Part shown: piece after piece, positions 14,620 to 24,054 of the stretch
Layout of the letters: each line of letters starts with the position of its first letter
Numbering within the stretch: the stretch's first letter is position 1
Assembly: GCA_028821785.1 (NCBI GenBank)
Contig: JAPKFC010000017.1
Coordinates: 1 to 33,161, forward strand
Length of the DNA stretch: 33,161 nucleotides
From: Candidatus Poseidoniaceae archaeon
GTDB taxonomy: Archaea; Thermoplasmatota; Poseidoniia; Poseidoniales; Poseidoniaceae
Direction of reading: 5' to 3'
The notes under the pieces: generated by a model
The model's database searches: none
The model's input: the letters and a program-made list of their open reading frames with translations, nothing else
What the model was told of the DNA's origin: nothing
Position numbers and translations under genes: made by a program

Positions 14620-17388
14620 TCATTCCGATGCTGCTTCAGCAATTTCAACAGGCGCTTCATCGTGCTTTTCTGCATCGTTGCTTTCCTCAGATTCCTCTTC
14701 AGCAAGCATTAATTTAACACCGTTAGCGATGCATAATAGAGCACCGATATAGAACAATACCGTTATGTAATCAACTGGGTGATCAAAGTTTGTCCAATAC
14801 GCGAACGAATCTTGATTGGTCACAATTGAACTTTCCATAGTATCAGCATCTGCTGCACCTATTGACGATGATGACTTGATTGTGAAAACCTTAGTCAAAT
14901 CAGACATTTCTGGAGCTGTTGTCATATTTGTATTTTGACGGGTGTCCAAGTAGAATGTTGTTGTAGATTCGCCAGCAATAATCAAACCAGATAGTTTCTC
15001 ACTCTTCAATGTAATATCGCTGCCCAAGAAAATTGGTAGAGCGCTCGGTGTTGCATCTAGTAAAGTGAATGTTTTCAGGTTCTTTGCTTGAATCGAACGT
15101 GATGTTGCTTCAACAGATGCTGTACAGATGTCAACTGGAATACCTTCAACGGTTCCTGTTTCGTCACAGGTAACAGGAACTACTGCATATCCTGATACAT
15201 CGACCTTGTCGTCAGTTCCTGTAAGGAATCCGCCTGTTGCACCATCTAGGTATTCAACTCCGATCAATCCATAGGTTGCTATTGCCATTCTGGTGTTATG
15301 CCATGGCAATTCATTGGAACCATCTTCTAATACAGATTCACCTTTGTCACATCCTGCAACTTCTCCAGTACAAATTGTGTATGATGTTCCATCACCATTG
15401 AGAACTCCATCTGAACCATAGTATGTTTCATTGGTATCTAGAGAAGCCCATCCAACAGTCATGTCCATTGGGTTTCCTGAAGCAAGGAAAGCATTAACTG
15501 GGTCATGCCATCCGAATAACCACGCACTCACAGGTTGAGTCAAATACTGCGTAGTTCCAAATGTACTCATCAAATATCCAGGTACGAAAGATGCTGGTGT
15601 TTCGCCATATATTGGGCCCATCATCAAAGCGCGAACTGCGGAAGCAGCATTTACATCAATTCCATACAAAGCAGCAATCGTTGAAGCATCCCAAGTCATT
15701 TGGGCACCTGGTTGCATTGTAGTGAAATCAATTGGAGGTGTTTGTCCTGATAGTTCACCGAATAGGAATAAAGTCGCACCTGTCTGAGTTGTTAGACCAA
15801 GTGGGCCATAGAGAAGGTTACCAGATTGTGCAGCGGTTAACTCGACTGCTGGAGCGCCAAGAGAGGCACCGACAAGTCCCCATGCACCGCCTAAGTTCAG
15901 GCTGTTGGTTAGGAAACCACCGTTGATCGGGTCTGCTGCGCCAAAGGTAGTATTGACGAATAGTGATGCTGTCATGTCTCCTGCTCCACCTTTGAGAACC
16001 ATAGGCAAACTGCTAACATCGGTTAGCCAAGCACCAGCCCACATTGCAATAGCTCCATATTGAGTAGCATCAAGACCAAATGCGGTCATTGCTGAAACTG
16101 CATCCATTTGCATGAAAGTTGCAAGTCCGAATGCAGTTTGATCTGCATTGCTAGCAAGAAGACCAGTTGGAGTATCTGTGCCTTGTCCTGCGAAGAGTAA
16201 ATTCATTGCAACCATGTTGTCAATAGTAATTCCCATATTAGCGAATCTTGCTGAAGCATTTACTGAGGTTGTAGGTGTAGCAAACCATGTTGCATCGCCA
16301 CCACCATTGGTTAGGAAGGTTCCTCCAACTCCGTAGCAAACTGCATGGTCTCTAGCGATTGTAGTGTTAAAGTCTGGAGTAGTTGCATCTGCCATTGCCA
16401 TATATCCCCAAATGGTTGCACGTTGCATAGTACCTACATTGGCGAATCCATTGGCTGCATCTGCCATGATTCCTGCGTAATCAGCAGTAGCATAAGCGGA
16501 ACAATGTCCTGCAAGTAGTAAAACGCCAAGCCCTCCAGTCAATGCCGCAGAATCACCTGTTGGCATCATTGCTGAGTTCATAGCCATCGACATATCTGTG
16601 AAATTTGCTAATTGCCCGACCATTGCTTGTGAATAAGAGATTGTTTCGCCCATGCCTGACATATTGTTATACCCTGAACCATTGATTGCAGCGAAATAAG
16701 CATCAAATGCATCAAACCATCCATTGGCTACTGCTGCTGGAGCCATTGCATCTGCAGTTGCTTGAGGTACCCCTGAAGCATTCATTAGTGCCGCTGCTCC
16801 TGCCATTTGTGCTGAAATTGTTGCCGCTGTTGCAGTACCTGCTTGCATGTTTTCCAAATCATTGCCCATCATACCGGCTGCGAATGCTACTTTAGTTAAG
16901 TCCATAATTCCGTTAATGGCCATTCCTGTTGCACCGATAACCTGTGGTTGGAATCCAATATTTATTTGAGTTACAGGAGTATCACAAGGCATTGCACTAT
17001 CTGCAGCGCATTGATGTGATTTGACTTGAGTATATGTTAGAGTACCATTTGTTTCATCATAGCCAGTAATGGTATTCGTTTTGGTAATATCATAAGTAAA
17101 TGGACCAACTTCTGTATAAGCCGGTTCAGAACCATTGGCTAAGACATCATCTACATTGGTTATTGTCCAAGCAGAATAGTCGCGTTGGGAAGTAGAAACT
17201 GCCCATTCGGCCTCTGCTTCTGTACAATCGTCGTTTGCACATGCTGTATCTTTTGTGTAGGTCGCAAATGTTTCGTCTACTGCATCTTGGACTCCACCAG
17301 TCGATAGTGGTGCCAAAAGTGCGAGGTTTAGAACAAGGAACATTAGGCCGGCTGCAAGCATTGTCTTATCTGATTTTAGAAGTGACAT
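14620..17388 (-). CDS. CD36 / scavenger receptor class B-like two-TM surface protein
   Basis: A 922-aa membrane protein built like eukaryotic CD36/SR-B1/LIMP-2: one TM near each end (about 9-30 and 872-895), a large outside domain and short cytoplasmic tails, the last one acidic. Landmarks appear in CD36 order: WTITNVDDVLANG (74-86), YTEVGPFTYD (91-100), WLFGWHDP (623-630, compare LLWGYxDP), YTICTG (670-675), LPIFLG (784-789, compare PVYISLPHF) and TFYLDTRQNT (811-820, compare TYLDIEPITG). CD36 is about 470 aa; here an extra ~400 residues rich in Ala, Gly and Met (about 165-600) sit where CD36 has its apex helix bundle. There are ten Cys outside the TMs. In animals the family binds lipids and passes them through an internal tunnel. 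The fold call rests on motif order read by eye; the role is inference. Confidence 0.72.
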   Translation of the reverse strand: MSLLKSDKTMLAAGLMFLVLNLALLAPLSTGGVQDAVDETFATYTKDTACANDDCTEAEAEWAVSTSQRDYSAWTITNVDDVLANGSEPAYTEVGPFTYDITKTNTITGYDETNGTLTYTQVKSHQCAADSAMPCDTPVTQINIGFQPQVIGATGMAINGIMDLTKVAFAAGMMGNDLENMQAGTATAATISAQMAGAAALMNASGVPQATADAMAPAAVANGWFDAFDAYFAAINGSGYNNMSGMGETISYSQAMVGQLANFTDMSMAMNSAMMPTGDSAALTGGLGVLLLAGHCSAYATADYAGIMADAANGFANVGTMQRATIWGYMAMADATTPDFNTTIARDHAVCYGVGGTFLTNGGGDATWFATPTTSVNASARFANMGITIDNMVAMNLLFAGQGTDTPTGLLASNADQTAFGLATFMQMDAVSAMTAFGLDATQYGAIAMWAGAWLTDVSSLPMVLKGGAGDMTASLFVNTTFGAADPINGGFLTNSLNLGGAWGLVGASLGAPAVELTAAQSGNLLYGPLGLTTQTGATLFLFGELSGQTPPIDFTTMQPGAQMTWDASTIAALYGIDVNAASAVRALMMGPIYGETPASFVPGYLMSTFGTTQYLTQPVSAWLFGWHDPVNAFLASGNPMDMTVGWASLDTNETYYGSDGVLNGDGTSYTICTGEVAGCDKGESVLEDGSNELPWHNTRMAIATYGLIGVEYLDGATGGFLTGTDDKVDVSGYAVVPVTCDETGTVEGIPVDICTASVEATSRSIQAKNLKTFTLLDATPSALPIFLGSDITLKSEKLSGLIIAGESTTTFYLDTRQNTNMTTAPEMSDLTKVFTIKSSSSIGAADADTMESSIVTNQDSFAYWTNFDHPVDYITVLFYIGALLCIANGVKLMLAEEESEESNDAEKHDEAPVEIAEAASE

Positions 17389-19724: not shown

Positions 19725-22700
19725 TCAGTCTTGCCACTCAGCCCAGTCTTGCCAACCTTGCTCGCGATACCACCAAACTCCAACTTCATCTTCGTACCAT
19801 TCTGTACCGTTTTCATCAACAGTGATTCCATCCGAAGACTGTTCGGTTTGTTCTATTTCCGCAACCTCAGACTGGTATTCAGTACCGCCATCTACTTCAT
19901 CAAATAATTGTGAAGAAGGTCCTGCTGGTGCATCTTCTCCGATAATAGTCCCCTCTGCTTTCAACTCATCAAGAGTTTTGTTTGTCTTTGGAACAACGGA
20001 CTTAGATGGTCCTCGAGTGGCTGGGAGTGCTTCCTCTTCAACCCAGTCTTCATCTTCGAAATCAAAGTCTTCATCTTTCGGCCTGAGAACTATCACTGCG
20101 CCTACTATGATTGCAAGAACTATAATCGCCCCGATTCCGATGAACAATGGAGTATTACTCTTAGTCGGTGTCGGTGTAGTATTGTTAGTATCTGTGCCTG
20201 AATTATCAATGATTTCTGATTCTAAATTCCAATCGAATTGGCCACTATCAATACTCTCTAAATCCCACTCGGTAGCAGTTGACGTGATTGTCCAAGACAC
20301 TCCCATGTTTCCTGCAAAGAGGCCGGTGGAAGGTCCATTTCTAATAACTGAGAAGGTCATTGGGATTTCAGATTCATTAGCCGCAAATATGTAGGGGGTT
20401 TGAGTCAACAATGTAAACTCAATAGCACCTTGATCTCCTAGAAGAATTTCAACGCTTACTTCGAAAGGATTCGGATTAGACATTATGCATACCAATGCAG
20501 TATCGGTTGCATTTTGCGCCCATAAATAGTTCTGCATTGGACAGGTTAGAGTGACCGAACTAATCGTTGTAGGTTGCCAAGTATCTGTATTGTTTTGCGT
20601 CTCGTTTCCTGTTTCATTGGTTACCACAGTATCGTCGACCCAGGCTAGGAAAGAGATGCTGAAATCATCGTTATCATTATCTAACCAAGAAGATGTATTC
20701 AATGTCCAGACTCTCAATACTGTATTTTCTAATGCGAAGCCACTAATTTCTATTTCTCCACCCTTAACCTCTTCAGTTCCAGATGAAGTCAAATCCCCAT
20801 CTGCTGTGCTAATCTGCCAAGAATACTGAACTCCTTCTAGCAAAAATTGTTGTTCTACCGTTGGAGAGTCAACTGTAATGATTGTTGAAAATGAATTATC
20901 CGCAGCTAATTGAATAGTACTATCTGCTGTTACAATTGAATGGACTTTAGCACTAATAGTCTGATTTAATGCTGAATTGCTAATTGGTTGAAGGAGAATG
21001 TTGTCAGTAGACCCTTCATAACCTGCGCTGAATTCAACATCGCCAACCATGCCGAACATGACACTAGATAATTCGCTTAATTCAGCTACCGAAATCGCCT
21101 GCCAAGTTCCATTTTCATCAGTAGCCCCAGTAAATGTTTGTGTGTATAGAGGATGTTCCATCTTTACCCATAACTGTTCACCCACTATTGGGTTTCCATC
21201 GGCCATCAAATTCAAATTAATATCCAATGGGCCTGCTGCTTCAAGATGCATTTGTTGTTGATGAGTACTAGCAGAAATGTCCCATGTTAGATTGGCTGAA
21301 CGAATGGTGTCGTTTCTAGTATAAACTGGTCCAAATGCTTGGACTGCATCAGTTGTATTGCCAAGCGTATCGTATCCAATAACTGAAACCCAATATGCAG
21401 TGCCATCTACCAATTGTGAATCTAATGCACAGCAACTAACTGTTGCGTTTAATATATCTGGAGTTGTAAATCCTGAATAGGAAGCAAGAGCGATGGTTGA
21501 AGAAAGATTAGATACATTCATTGTGTTGATATAAATTTTGTATTCGGTTATTGTATCGTCGCCAGCAAGCCATGCAATATCCAAAGATCCACCTCCATCA
21601 TTTGGTGTATCTTGAGCCGTTACTCCTGTGATTGTTGAAGGCGGAGATGGATAAGGTATTGTCACTGAAACTATTGCCGATAGATTACTAGTGACCCCAT
21701 AGGTGTGTAAAGAACGAACTGCGTAATCATAAGTTGCACCAAATGTAATGGAAGAGTCCATTGTGAGGTTAAGAGGGGTATTTGAAAAGATTGTGTTAAA
21801 GTCGATTGGGTTTCCATTGTCTACTCTAAATATTTCAAACTCTACCAAATCAGGTCCGAAGTCAACGACGTCTTGCCATTCGAGAACTACTACTTCTGAA
21901 GTTAATTGGGCGACAACCAGAATTGGCGTTGGTGGTAATGCTAAATTGGGCGCACCATCATGGTATTCCGCTGCAAGACTCAAGATTGTGAAATTACCTG
22001 CCAATGTTGAATTGAATGCCAATGGGACATCGATTATTCCCACCCCCCCTGTTTGTCTTTGATTGAATACATTTGTTAGGTTTCCAGAAGAATGGGGGTT
22101 TGTATCAACTATGAAATCTGCATTATAGCCAAAGTCTAGTTGTGATAGATTGAAAGTTCCAATACTATTGGCAGAGAAATTAAAAGTATATTCTGACATT
22201 GAGATTCCGTATCCATCTGTAGTATATCCTCCTACACTCATTTGCGGAGAGAGGATTTGGTACATCTCTCCAAATGGATCCATTATTTCCAACGGCTCTT
22301 GACCTAATACTCCATCTCCTGCATAACCAGTCGCATTAAGGTCAGAAATTCCATCTTTATTGATGTCCACTTTAATACTATACCATGCTGAAATGTATAG
22401 TCCGGTAAGATTTCCTTCACCTGCAATAATTATCTGCTCATCAAGACCATCGCCATCCATGTCTCCGAGAATAATATCCTGTGGATGTGACCACGGGTAT
22501 ATGTCTGGATGAGAGGCAGAAGAAGTTACTCTCCAACCTCCACCCCAGCCGCTACGATAGTAAATGTCCTTAAATTCAATTTGGCCTTCTACTGTACTGG
22601 CATTACCATCAGGCACACCTGGTGATACCATCATCAGTGAATTATTACCGTCGCCATCATGATCTGCAATCGTCGCATTGATTAGATTCGCTGACCGGCT

Positions 22701-23948
22701 ACTGCTGTCGGTATCCCAAGTACCACTGTTTCTCATTCTTGTTATTTTGGTCCCACCGTTTCCTCTTCTCGAAACGAAATCCATATCTCCATCATTATCA
22801 ATATCTCCACAAACAATATTGTACCCCAATCCATCAAGGTCATTTGTAGTCTCGTAAATTGCATTTTGGAACCACTTTACTTCAAATCCATCGCCGTCAT
22901 TACCAATTACAACTGCAGAAATATTGAATCCCATGCGAATACTACCTAGGAATAACTGAGAAAGGTTGGCTACTGTTAGCGGATTGTCGCCATGGAGTGT
23001 GGTTGTCACATTATTGCCCCAAGAACTTGATTTGTTTGAATATGCGCGGAATGCGAATGTTCCATTGGGGTGAATTGAAACTACGTCCGCAGATCCGTCA
23101 TTAGTGAAATCTGCAAACCCTGCATCTCTAGCACCTCCATATAAATCAAGTTCAAATAATGGACCTGGTAATCCGGTTGTTGTATTTGTTAAGTGGATAC
23201 ATGCCAAATCATCATTTAAGGCAAATGTTGCAACATCGTCTAATCCGTCCTTATTCATATCTGCTACATTCGAATATGTCGCATTATCACATGTAGCAGT
23301 CCAAGAGGTATTTGTCAAGCCATTAGTTGCATTCCAAGTTACAAATGAAATTGCTGTACCGACACCGGTTGTATTATTTAATTGTGAAAGAAGTACTACA
23401 TCTTCGTTTGAATCATTATTAACATCACCGAGAACCATGTCAGTAATGTGCCCTAATTGCAACATTCCCCCTCCTATTTGTGGAGAAAATGACATGTTCA
23501 AATCCGCAGTATATAATGAAGCTGCGTGTGGCAACAAAATGGGGTCTGAGGTAGACCAATTCGATCCATTTGTTGGAATTACTTTGTATGTAGATGAATC
23601 ATTAAATGTATTTTGATGTGCAAAATCACCATATCCTGCGCCTGTAAATGCCCATTCATTACTACCATCTTGGTCAATATCTAGCCATACACTACCAGGG
23701 CTAGTTTCGGCTGCTTCTGCTTTAATGAAGAAAGATGCACTGTCAAAGGTTACATTACGAGGAATTTCAATAGCAGAAGTATTGTCAATTGTCGAGCCCT
23801 GTAAAGTGACATCGATATTAGCAAAACCTCCCCCAAAGGTGTTTAGTGAGCCTGTATGCCCATTAGCAGATACCAAAACCGCCGACCACGAATTAAGAAC
23901 TAATAAGGCAATGAAAAGAAAAACTGCCCCCCGCTTATGTCGTTGCAT
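19725..23948 (-). CDS. Giant secreted FG-GAP/VCBS and fibronectin type III surface protein with C-terminal TM
   Basis: A cell-surface protein of 1407 aa. The signal peptide follows MQRHKRGAVF (cleavage near LVSANG). The first ~600 residues hold about eight Asp/Asn-rich calcium loops of the FG-GAP/VCBS type, for example DVNNDSNEDVV, DMNKDGLDDVA, DIDNDGDMDFV, DMDGDGLDEQI and DINKDGISDLN, as in integrin-alpha-like propellers. Two Fn3-like domains follow (starting near ILVVAQLTSEVVVLEW and STITGVTAQDTPNDGG), then beta-rich domains, a Thr/Asn-rich stalk, one TM (about 1266-1290) and a 117-residue acidic cytoplasmic tail rich in Trp and Tyr at its end. The frame is open to 24047, but only the ATG at 23948 gives an N-terminal signal peptide. 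Adhesion or carbohydrate/protein binding is likely; no catalytic motif is visible. Confidence 0.88.
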   Translation of the reverse strand: MQRHKRGAVFLFIALLVLNSWSAVLVSANGHTGSLNTFGGGFANIDVTLQGSTIDNTSAIEIPRNVTFDSASFFIKAEAAETSPGSVWLDIDQDGSNEWAFTGAGYGDFAHQNTFNDSSTYKVIPTNGSNWSTSDPILLPHAASLYTADLNMSFSPQIGGGMLQLGHITDMVLGDVNNDSNEDVVLLSQLNNTTGVGTAISFVTWNATNGLTNTSWTATCDNATYSNVADMNKDGLDDVATFALNDDLACIHLTNTTTGLPGPLFELDLYGGARDAGFADFTNDGSADVVSIHPNGTFAFRAYSNKSSSWGNNVTTTLHGDNPLTVANLSQLFLGSIRMGFNISAVVIGNDGDGFEVKWFQNAIYETTNDLDGLGYNIVCGDIDNDGDMDFVSRRGNGGTKITRMRNSGTWDTDSSSRSANLINATIADHDGDGNNSLMMVSPGVPDGNASTVEGQIEFKDIYYRSGWGGGWRVTSSASHPDIYPWSHPQDIILGDMDGDGLDEQIIIAGEGNLTGLYISAWYSIKVDINKDGISDLNATGYAGDGVLGQEPLEIMDPFGEMYQILSPQMSVGGYTTDGYGISMSEYTFNFSANSIGTFNLSQLDFGYNADFIVDTNPHSSGNLTNVFNQRQTGGVGIIDVPLAFNSTLAGNFTILSLAAEYHDGAPNLALPPTPILVVAQLTSEVVVLEWQDVVDFGPDLVEFEIFRVDNGNPIDFNTIFSNTPLNLTMDSSITFGATYDYAVRSLHTYGVTSNLSAIVSVTIPYPSPPSTITGVTAQDTPNDGGGSLDIAWLAGDDTITEYKIYINTMNVSNLSSTIALASYSGFTTPDILNATVSCCALDSQLVDGTAYWVSVIGYDTLGNTTDAVQAFGPVYTRNDTIRSANLTWDISASTHQQQMHLEAAGPLDINLNLMADGNPIVGEQLWVKMEHPLYTQTFTGATDENGTWQAISVAELSELSSVMFGMVGDVEFSAGYEGSTDNILLQPISNSALNQTISAKVHSIVTADSTIQLAADNSFSTIITVDSPTVEQQFLLEGVQYSWQISTADGDLTSSGTEEVKGGEIEISGFALENTVLRVWTLNTSSWLDNDNDDFSISFLAWVDDTVVTNETGNETQNNTDTWQPTTISSVTLTCPMQNYLWAQNATDTALVCIMSNPNPFEVSVEILLGDQGAIEFTLLTQTPYIFAANESEIPMTFSVIRNGPSTGLFAGNMGVSWTITSTATEWDLESIDSGQFDWNLESEIIDNSGTDTNNTTPTPTKSNTPLFIGIGAIIVLAIIVGAVIVLRPKDEDFDFEDEDWVEEEALPATRGPSKSVVPKTNKTLDELKAEGTIIGEDAPAGPSSQLFDEVDGGTEYQSEVAEIEQTEQSSDGITVDENGTEWYEDEVGVWWYREQGWQDWAEWQD

Positions 23949-24054
23949 AGTATCCACCCTATACACTGAGGAATAGTCCCCCTTGAAGTTACTTACGCAT
24001 AAAAACTTCAATGAATAGGAATAAAAATGATAATTTGCTATGTTCATTGAATTA

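Follow-up and report, generated by a model that had tools for sequence, protein, structure and literature searches.

A CD36-family protein with a large apex insertion in Poseidoniales archaea, and its possible role in lipid capture

The gene, its protein and its neighbors

This study examined a gene in a contig of a Candidatus Poseidoniaceae archaeon (the window, meaning the whole stretch of 33,161 nucleotides that was analyzed). The gene lies on the minus strand and encodes a protein of 922 aa, which an initial annotation had described as having a transmembrane segment at each end and five motifs of the CD36 family between them. Both descriptions held. By hydropathy there are two transmembrane segments and no others, at residues 7-33 and 872-896, and both of these terminal helices were also present in the structural models of this protein and of an orthologue, L157. 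All five motifs occurred in the order claimed: TNVDDVLANG (residues 77-86), EVGPFTY (93-99), WLFGWHDP (623-630), YTICTG (670-675) and FYLDTRQNT (812-820). The features of the gene are listed below, from the start of the protein to its end.

14620..17388, minus strand: CD36-family protein, 922 aa; open reading frame with an ATG start and without internal stop, matching PF01130 and with orthologues
17290..17370, minus strand: N-terminal transmembrane helix, residues 7-33; hydropathy maximum 2.26, AlphaFold helix 7-31
16909..17265, minus strand: CD36 barrel core part 1, residues 42-160, including the TN..DVL.NG and EVGPFTY motifs; PF01130 match 74-160, modelled strands
15607..16908, minus strand: apex insertion of about 434 aa, residues 161-594, nearly all helical; break in the PF01130 and LIMP-2 alignments, DSSP
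15499..15540, minus strand: hinge motif TQPVSAWLFGWHDP, residues 617-630, with LIMP-2 counterpart VTHTVDELLWGYKD; profile alignment to LIMP-2
14794..15606, minus strand: CD36 barrel core part 2, residues 595-865; modelled strands, Foldseek match to LIMP-2
14701..14775, minus strand: C-terminal transmembrane helix, residues 872-896; hydropathy, model helix 871-908
14623..14700, minus strand: short acidic C-terminal tail, residues 897-922, predicted to be cytoplasmic; sequence, and topology inferred from the two transmembrane helices

In the AlphaFold model the strands of the first part of the barrel core span residues 64-76, 91-111, 116-127 and 138-142, and those of the second part residues 668-673, 740-747, 750-759, 786-797, 802-815 and 831-842, while the C-terminal residues 900-922 have pLDDT values below 50.

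The neighboring genes, on both sides, encode GatB/GatE, an MCM helicase, an AIR-synthase-type (PurM-like) protein, a Trm1 tRNA methyltransferase and a PAC2 protein, and their order is conserved in three further genomes (L051, L061 and L063), four in all. A 1440-aa protein with FG-GAP repeats (19725-24047, minus strand), possibly a second large surface protein, is found at the same place in four genomes.

Family membership and predicted fold

CD36 (PF01130) was the sole Pfam family in the 922-aa protein, with a score of 47 bits (E = 1.7e-12) against a gathering cut-off of 26.5 bits. The match extends over residues 74-160 (about 87 residues), equivalent to profile positions 57-134. All 38 aligned archaeal relatives also matched the family (E <= 0.01, best 1.6e-20), and matches were found in none of 14 control prokaryote genomes. 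The search proposed in the initial annotation was therefore positive, and the view that the likeness of the motifs goes beyond chance gained firm backing from the E value and from the 38 relatives. The same annotation spoke of a full-length CD36 architecture, which was right as to family, transmembrane helices and motifs, but which hid an insertion of about 430 aa and passed over the restriction of the PF01130 match to residues 74-160. It is owing to this insertion that the protein is twice the size of CD36.

Searches of the PDB with archaeal profiles led to the same family. A 38-member profile retrieved human LIMP-2 (E = 2.8e-6) and CD36 (6e-4), the one remaining match being non-significant (E = 0.061), while a 7-member profile (LIMP-2, 3.4e-7; CD36, 2e-6) and a 90-member profile retrieved these two proteins and no others. 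The window's protein gave no match to the PDB as a single sequence, so profiles are required to reach LIMP-2. In the profile alignments the first four motifs paired in order with TNPEEILRG, EVGPYTY, LLWGYKDE and YVFLTG of LIMP-2. The alignment was collinear, covering the N-terminal strands, then the LIMP-2 hinge VTHTVDELLWGYKD opposite archaeal TQsvNNWLfGWhD and, after the hinge, LIMP-2 YVFLTGED..G..SLDW opposite archaeal YtiCTGE..G..eLsW (90- and 7-member profiles). The fifth motif, FYLDT, was paired with LIMP-2 solely in a pairwise segment below threshold, and so is not counted as independent evidence.

The PF01130 match (profile position 134) and the alignment with LIMP-2 are both interrupted around residue 160, with resumption near residues 595-617, and since the corresponding break points in LIMP-2 are just 15-30 residues or so apart, residues 161-594 represent an insertion. 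It is almost entirely helical, as judged by DSSP of the AlphaFold model, and its removal leaves an ectodomain core of about 390 aa, as large as the ectodomain of LIMP-2. The insert was present in 90 of 90 aligned members, at lengths of 240-467 aa, with a mean identity to the window's protein of 38%, compared with 46% for the core. The compact three-helix apex bundle of CD36 was not found, being replaced or enlarged by this helical insert. Such a bundle is not needed for membership, as many eukaryotic members are expanded at the apex, and in eukaryotic CD36s whose ectodomain is long the extra sequence lies at the ligand-binding apex helices alpha4/alpha5 (Boohar et al., PMC10715195, section 10), the same place as the archaeal insert. 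The insert of the window's protein (15607-16908) has 7.8% charged residues, below the minimum of 11.3% among 434-aa stretches sampled from neighboring genes; very low charge was rejected as a trait of the family, for which the median is 15.5%.

AlphaFold modelled the window's protein with a pLDDT of 84.7 and a pTM of 0.74. In a Foldseek comparison of this model with the PDB, the best 13 matches were all LIMP-2/CD36, with LIMP-2 at the top (E = 3e-6, prob 1.00), although the superposition was moderate (TM-score about 0.41 on target, rmsd 6-7 Å). The divergent and shorter orthologue L157 (725 aa) modelled better (pLDDT 86.9, pTM 0.80) and matched LIMP-2/CD36 over essentially its whole length (E = 1.1e-10; TM-score 0.62-0.67 on target, except for the 5uph chains, 0.53-0.54). 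At E <= 0.001 there were 12 matches for the window's model and 13 for that of L157, all to LIMP-2/CD36. The structure comparison suggested in the initial annotation thus recovered the LIMP-2/CD36 barrel, at an identity to LIMP-2 in the structural alignment of about 10%. The WLFGWHDP hinge is modelled as a short strand (615-619) followed by a helix (620-625), and likewise in L157 (strand 418-422, helix 423-428). Motif M6 of the eukaryotic proteins is a short strand plus helix that links the apex helices (Boohar et al., PMC10715195), and the hinge, going by this published description and not by a motif matrix, would be its counterpart. Alignments and models together show a predicted CD36/LIMP-2-like barrel core of about 390 aa, split at the apex, in the alpha4/alpha5 position, by a helical domain of 240-467 aa. 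On profile and model evidence it is nearly certain, for fold and family membership alike, that this archaeal protein truly belongs to the CD36 (class B scavenger receptor) superfamily.

Next after LIMP-2 and CD36 among the Foldseek matches of the L157 model came LmcA of Mycobacterium smegmatis (E = 1.2e-3, prob 1.00, TM-score 0.35 on target), the only confident match to a PDB structure other than CD36. The crystallographers of LmcA had themselves reported its likeness to CD36 and LIMP-2 (DALI Z 11-12; PMC8972800), and its domain, DUF3068, has been described as confined to actinobacteria (PMC9678360). Short, deep-branching members of the archaeal family gave weak, collinear matches to PorA/DUF3068 (PF11271), the best at 8.9e-5 and 22.4 bits, below the cut-off of 29.5. 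In whole-genome searches the CD36-like gene was the sole match in each of four genomes, within the second half of the barrel, and the window's genome gave no match. These resemblances in sequence and model point towards a wider superfamily without demonstrating membership.

Distribution and descent in the Poseidoniales

A search of 390 sampled Thermoplasmatota genomes with PF01130 found matches in 102, all of them Poseidoniales. With the 90-sequence archaeal profile this rose to 115 of the 127 Poseidoniales (Marine Group II) genomes, against none of the 263 sampled from elsewhere in the Thermoplasmatota; most of the 12 Poseidoniales genomes without a detected copy are incomplete. Within the sampled Thermoplasmatota the gene is confined to this one order. 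Public genomes gave a similar picture, as 79 of the 80 relatives kept came from entries titled Poseidoniales, Poseidoniaceae, Thalassarchaeaceae, Poseidonia or Euryarchaeota/euryarchaeote. That contig scan used one family-specific motif, which distant homologues elsewhere may escape. A bacterial carrier (L081, from a bin titled 'Rhodobiaceae') was rejected, because its contig coordinates are identical to those of Poseidoniales genome G197 and it looks like a mislabelled bin. No relative was detected in IMG/VR, and no significant match among viral structures.

Copies occur in G015, a genome assembled as one contig of 2.06 Mb, and the gene is present in AH-273-O19 and AG-333-I22, which to judge from the style of their isolate names are single-cell genomes. 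The second CD36-like copy of G015 (L062:6544-9236, minus strand) is split into two overlapping reading frames of 578 and 331 aa, which points to a pseudogene or to faulty assembly.

In a tree built from 61 full-length proteins the order's two families came out separate, apart from three changes of label. One f2 protein (L040:5419-8028) was nested, with full support, among f1 sequences, indicating some transfer within the order. Genus g14 carries two divergently transcribed CD36-like genes arranged head to head (L040:5419-8028, minus strand, and L040:8115-10667, plus strand; likewise in L032 and L033), and the nesting of one copy in the other family suggests transfer within the order to a position beside a resident copy. 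The simplest reading of this history is that the gene was acquired once, at the base of the Poseidoniales or earlier, and has since descended mostly vertically.

CD36 is otherwise described from eukaryotes, and the gene might have come from eukaryotic DNA through an error of binning or assembly. This explanation was rejected and has a negligible probability, as archaeal housekeeping genes flank the gene on both sides, synteny is conserved in four genomes, 115 of 127 genomes are positive, the one-contig genome and those with single-cell-style names carry it, and the gene tree follows the two families with just three label changes. That an unrelated archaeal exported protein came to share a few motifs with CD36 by convergence is a very improbable account, even though PF01130 covers just 87 or so residues of the window's protein: the sequence-profile and structure evidence are independent, collinear landmarks stand on both sides of the insert, and the insertion falls at the site of the eukaryotic CD36 expansions (PMC10715195, section 10).

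Possible function and relation to known systems

By analogy with CD36 and LIMP-2, the likeliest of several roles, with roughly an even chance of being correct, is that of a surface receptor for the capture of lipids or fatty acids, which would then reach the membrane by way of the barrel. The N- and C-terminal tails would lie inside the cell, with the barrel and apex outside as one large extracellular domain, anchored by a transmembrane helix at both ends. The apex domain may bind lipid-bearing matter outside the cell, be it vesicles, debris of phytoplankton, phospholipids or free fatty acids, and lipid would then move via the putative barrel cavity to the membrane, where it could be activated and beta-oxidized or re-esterified. 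For CD36 and LIMP-2 themselves, the binding and conduction of fatty acids and sterols are established (summarized in PMC10715195). Fatty-acid degradation genes are present in all genera of Poseidoniales (Rinke et al., PMC6461757, a paper in which the word 'receptor' is absent), and the window's genome has five matches to acyl-CoA dehydrogenases and three to PlsC-type acyltransferases.

The gene neighborhoods varied across the order. At three loci in two genera (L035:4411-6099, L055 and L059) a PlsC-type acyltransferase gene (PF01553) divergently adjoins the CD36-like gene, and at three loci of one genus (L048, L052 and L057) the next gene downstream, on the same strand, encodes a Band-7/SPFH (stomatin-like) protein. 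Flotillin-type proteins organize membrane domains. At four loci (L056, L060, L067 and L070) the CD36-like gene is followed, on the same strand, by one for a large protein that is predicted to be exported and has lamin-tail and PLD-like domains, and at seven loci a gene for a TctA-type transporter lies upstream. There was no universal operon partner conserved across the Poseidoniales loci compared, so that the argument from neighborhood is weak. Proteins with the CD36 fold also act as adhesion receptors, as carriers of enzymes (LIMP-2) and as envelope-lipid proteins (LmcA), and with so many roles served, the fold alone has no power to fix function.

The protein might instead resemble LmcA in its work, handling the envelope lipids or glycolipids of the archaeon itself during membrane assembly or turnover and not the uptake of food. 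LmcA is the sole confident fold match outside CD36 (E = 1.2e-3, prob 1.00), the weak PorA/DUF3068 matches of four genomes (best 8.9e-5) fall in the CD36-like gene, a PlsC-type acyltransferase adjoins the gene in one clade, mixed G3P ether-lipid membranes have been inferred for the Poseidoniales (Rinke et al., PMC6461757), and near-universal presence would suit envelope housekeeping. We nevertheless regard this as rather unlikely, given that the PorA matches are below the Pfam cut-off and absent from the window's genome, that LmcA is without an apex bundle (PMC8972800) whereas the archaeal apex is hugely enlarged, which speaks for an outward-directed role, and that 12 of 127 genomes, most of them incomplete, had no detected copy. 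A role mainly in adhesion or recognition, in which the large helical apex attaches to particles, to the surfaces of algae or to other cells and the barrel is a mere stalk, would fit an insert that accounts for roughly half of the protein, occurs in every one of the 90 members and differs among them in length (240-467 aa) and in sequence (mean identity to the window's protein 38%, core 46%); Poseidoniales are also thought to attach to particles (PMC6461757). It too must be judged unlikely, as the barrel core is better conserved than the insert, which suggests that the barrel itself matters.

Poseidoniales are common in the surface ocean and rank among its most abundant archaea. They have genes for fatty-acid degradation and no lipid receptor described in the literature cited here, and the protein is a candidate for their capture of lipids from seawater. 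Class B scavenger receptors have been regarded as a family of eukaryotes that goes back to their last common ancestor, and the eukaryote-wide study of the family makes no mention of archaea (PMC10715195). A search of 5.39 million openly available papers (subscription papers and preprints were outside its scope) turned up no account of CD36 proteins from archaea, Poseidoniales included. Automated database annotation of archaeal CD36-like proteins is likely. What is new here is an archaeal branch of the CD36 superfamily with a large new apex domain. More tentatively, and short of being probable, the superfamily may predate the eukaryotes, with the Poseidoniales proteins as an ancient prokaryotic branch that lies between the class B scavenger receptors of eukaryotes and the LmcA of actinobacteria, serving as lipid-capture receptors with a new apex domain. 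Given an archaeal family that spans a whole order and is tied to LmcA by fold and, weakly, by sequence, prokaryotic outgroups can be used to test where CD36 came from.

Three groups of known proteins can be compared with the archaeal family. LmcA/MSMEG_0317 (DUF3068, PF11271 'PorA') of Mycobacterium and Corynebacterium is likewise a prokaryotic envelope protein with a CD36-like barrel fold, but it is smaller and has neither apex bundle nor insert (PMC8972800), and the archaeal matches to PorA are below the cut-off. Dictyostelium LmpA and the SR-Bs of Phytophthora and Tetrahymena share with the archaeal protein a lineage-specific helical expansion at alpha4/alpha5 with the barrel kept (PMC10715195); these expansions, likened to the archaeal insert by description, differ in being eukaryotic and were judged independent in origin (PMC10715195). 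The class B scavenger receptors (human CD36, LIMP-2/SCARB2 and SCARB1) have a compact three-helix bundle in place of the insert of 240-467 aa, an identity of about 10% and hosts that are not archaeal, but they have in common with the archaeal protein two terminal transmembrane helices, the TN..E(V)GP(F/Y)TY strand motifs, the hinge (WLFGWHDP, in LIMP-2 LLWGYKDE) and a barrel core of about 390 aa that superposes with a TM-score of up to 0.67 (L157).
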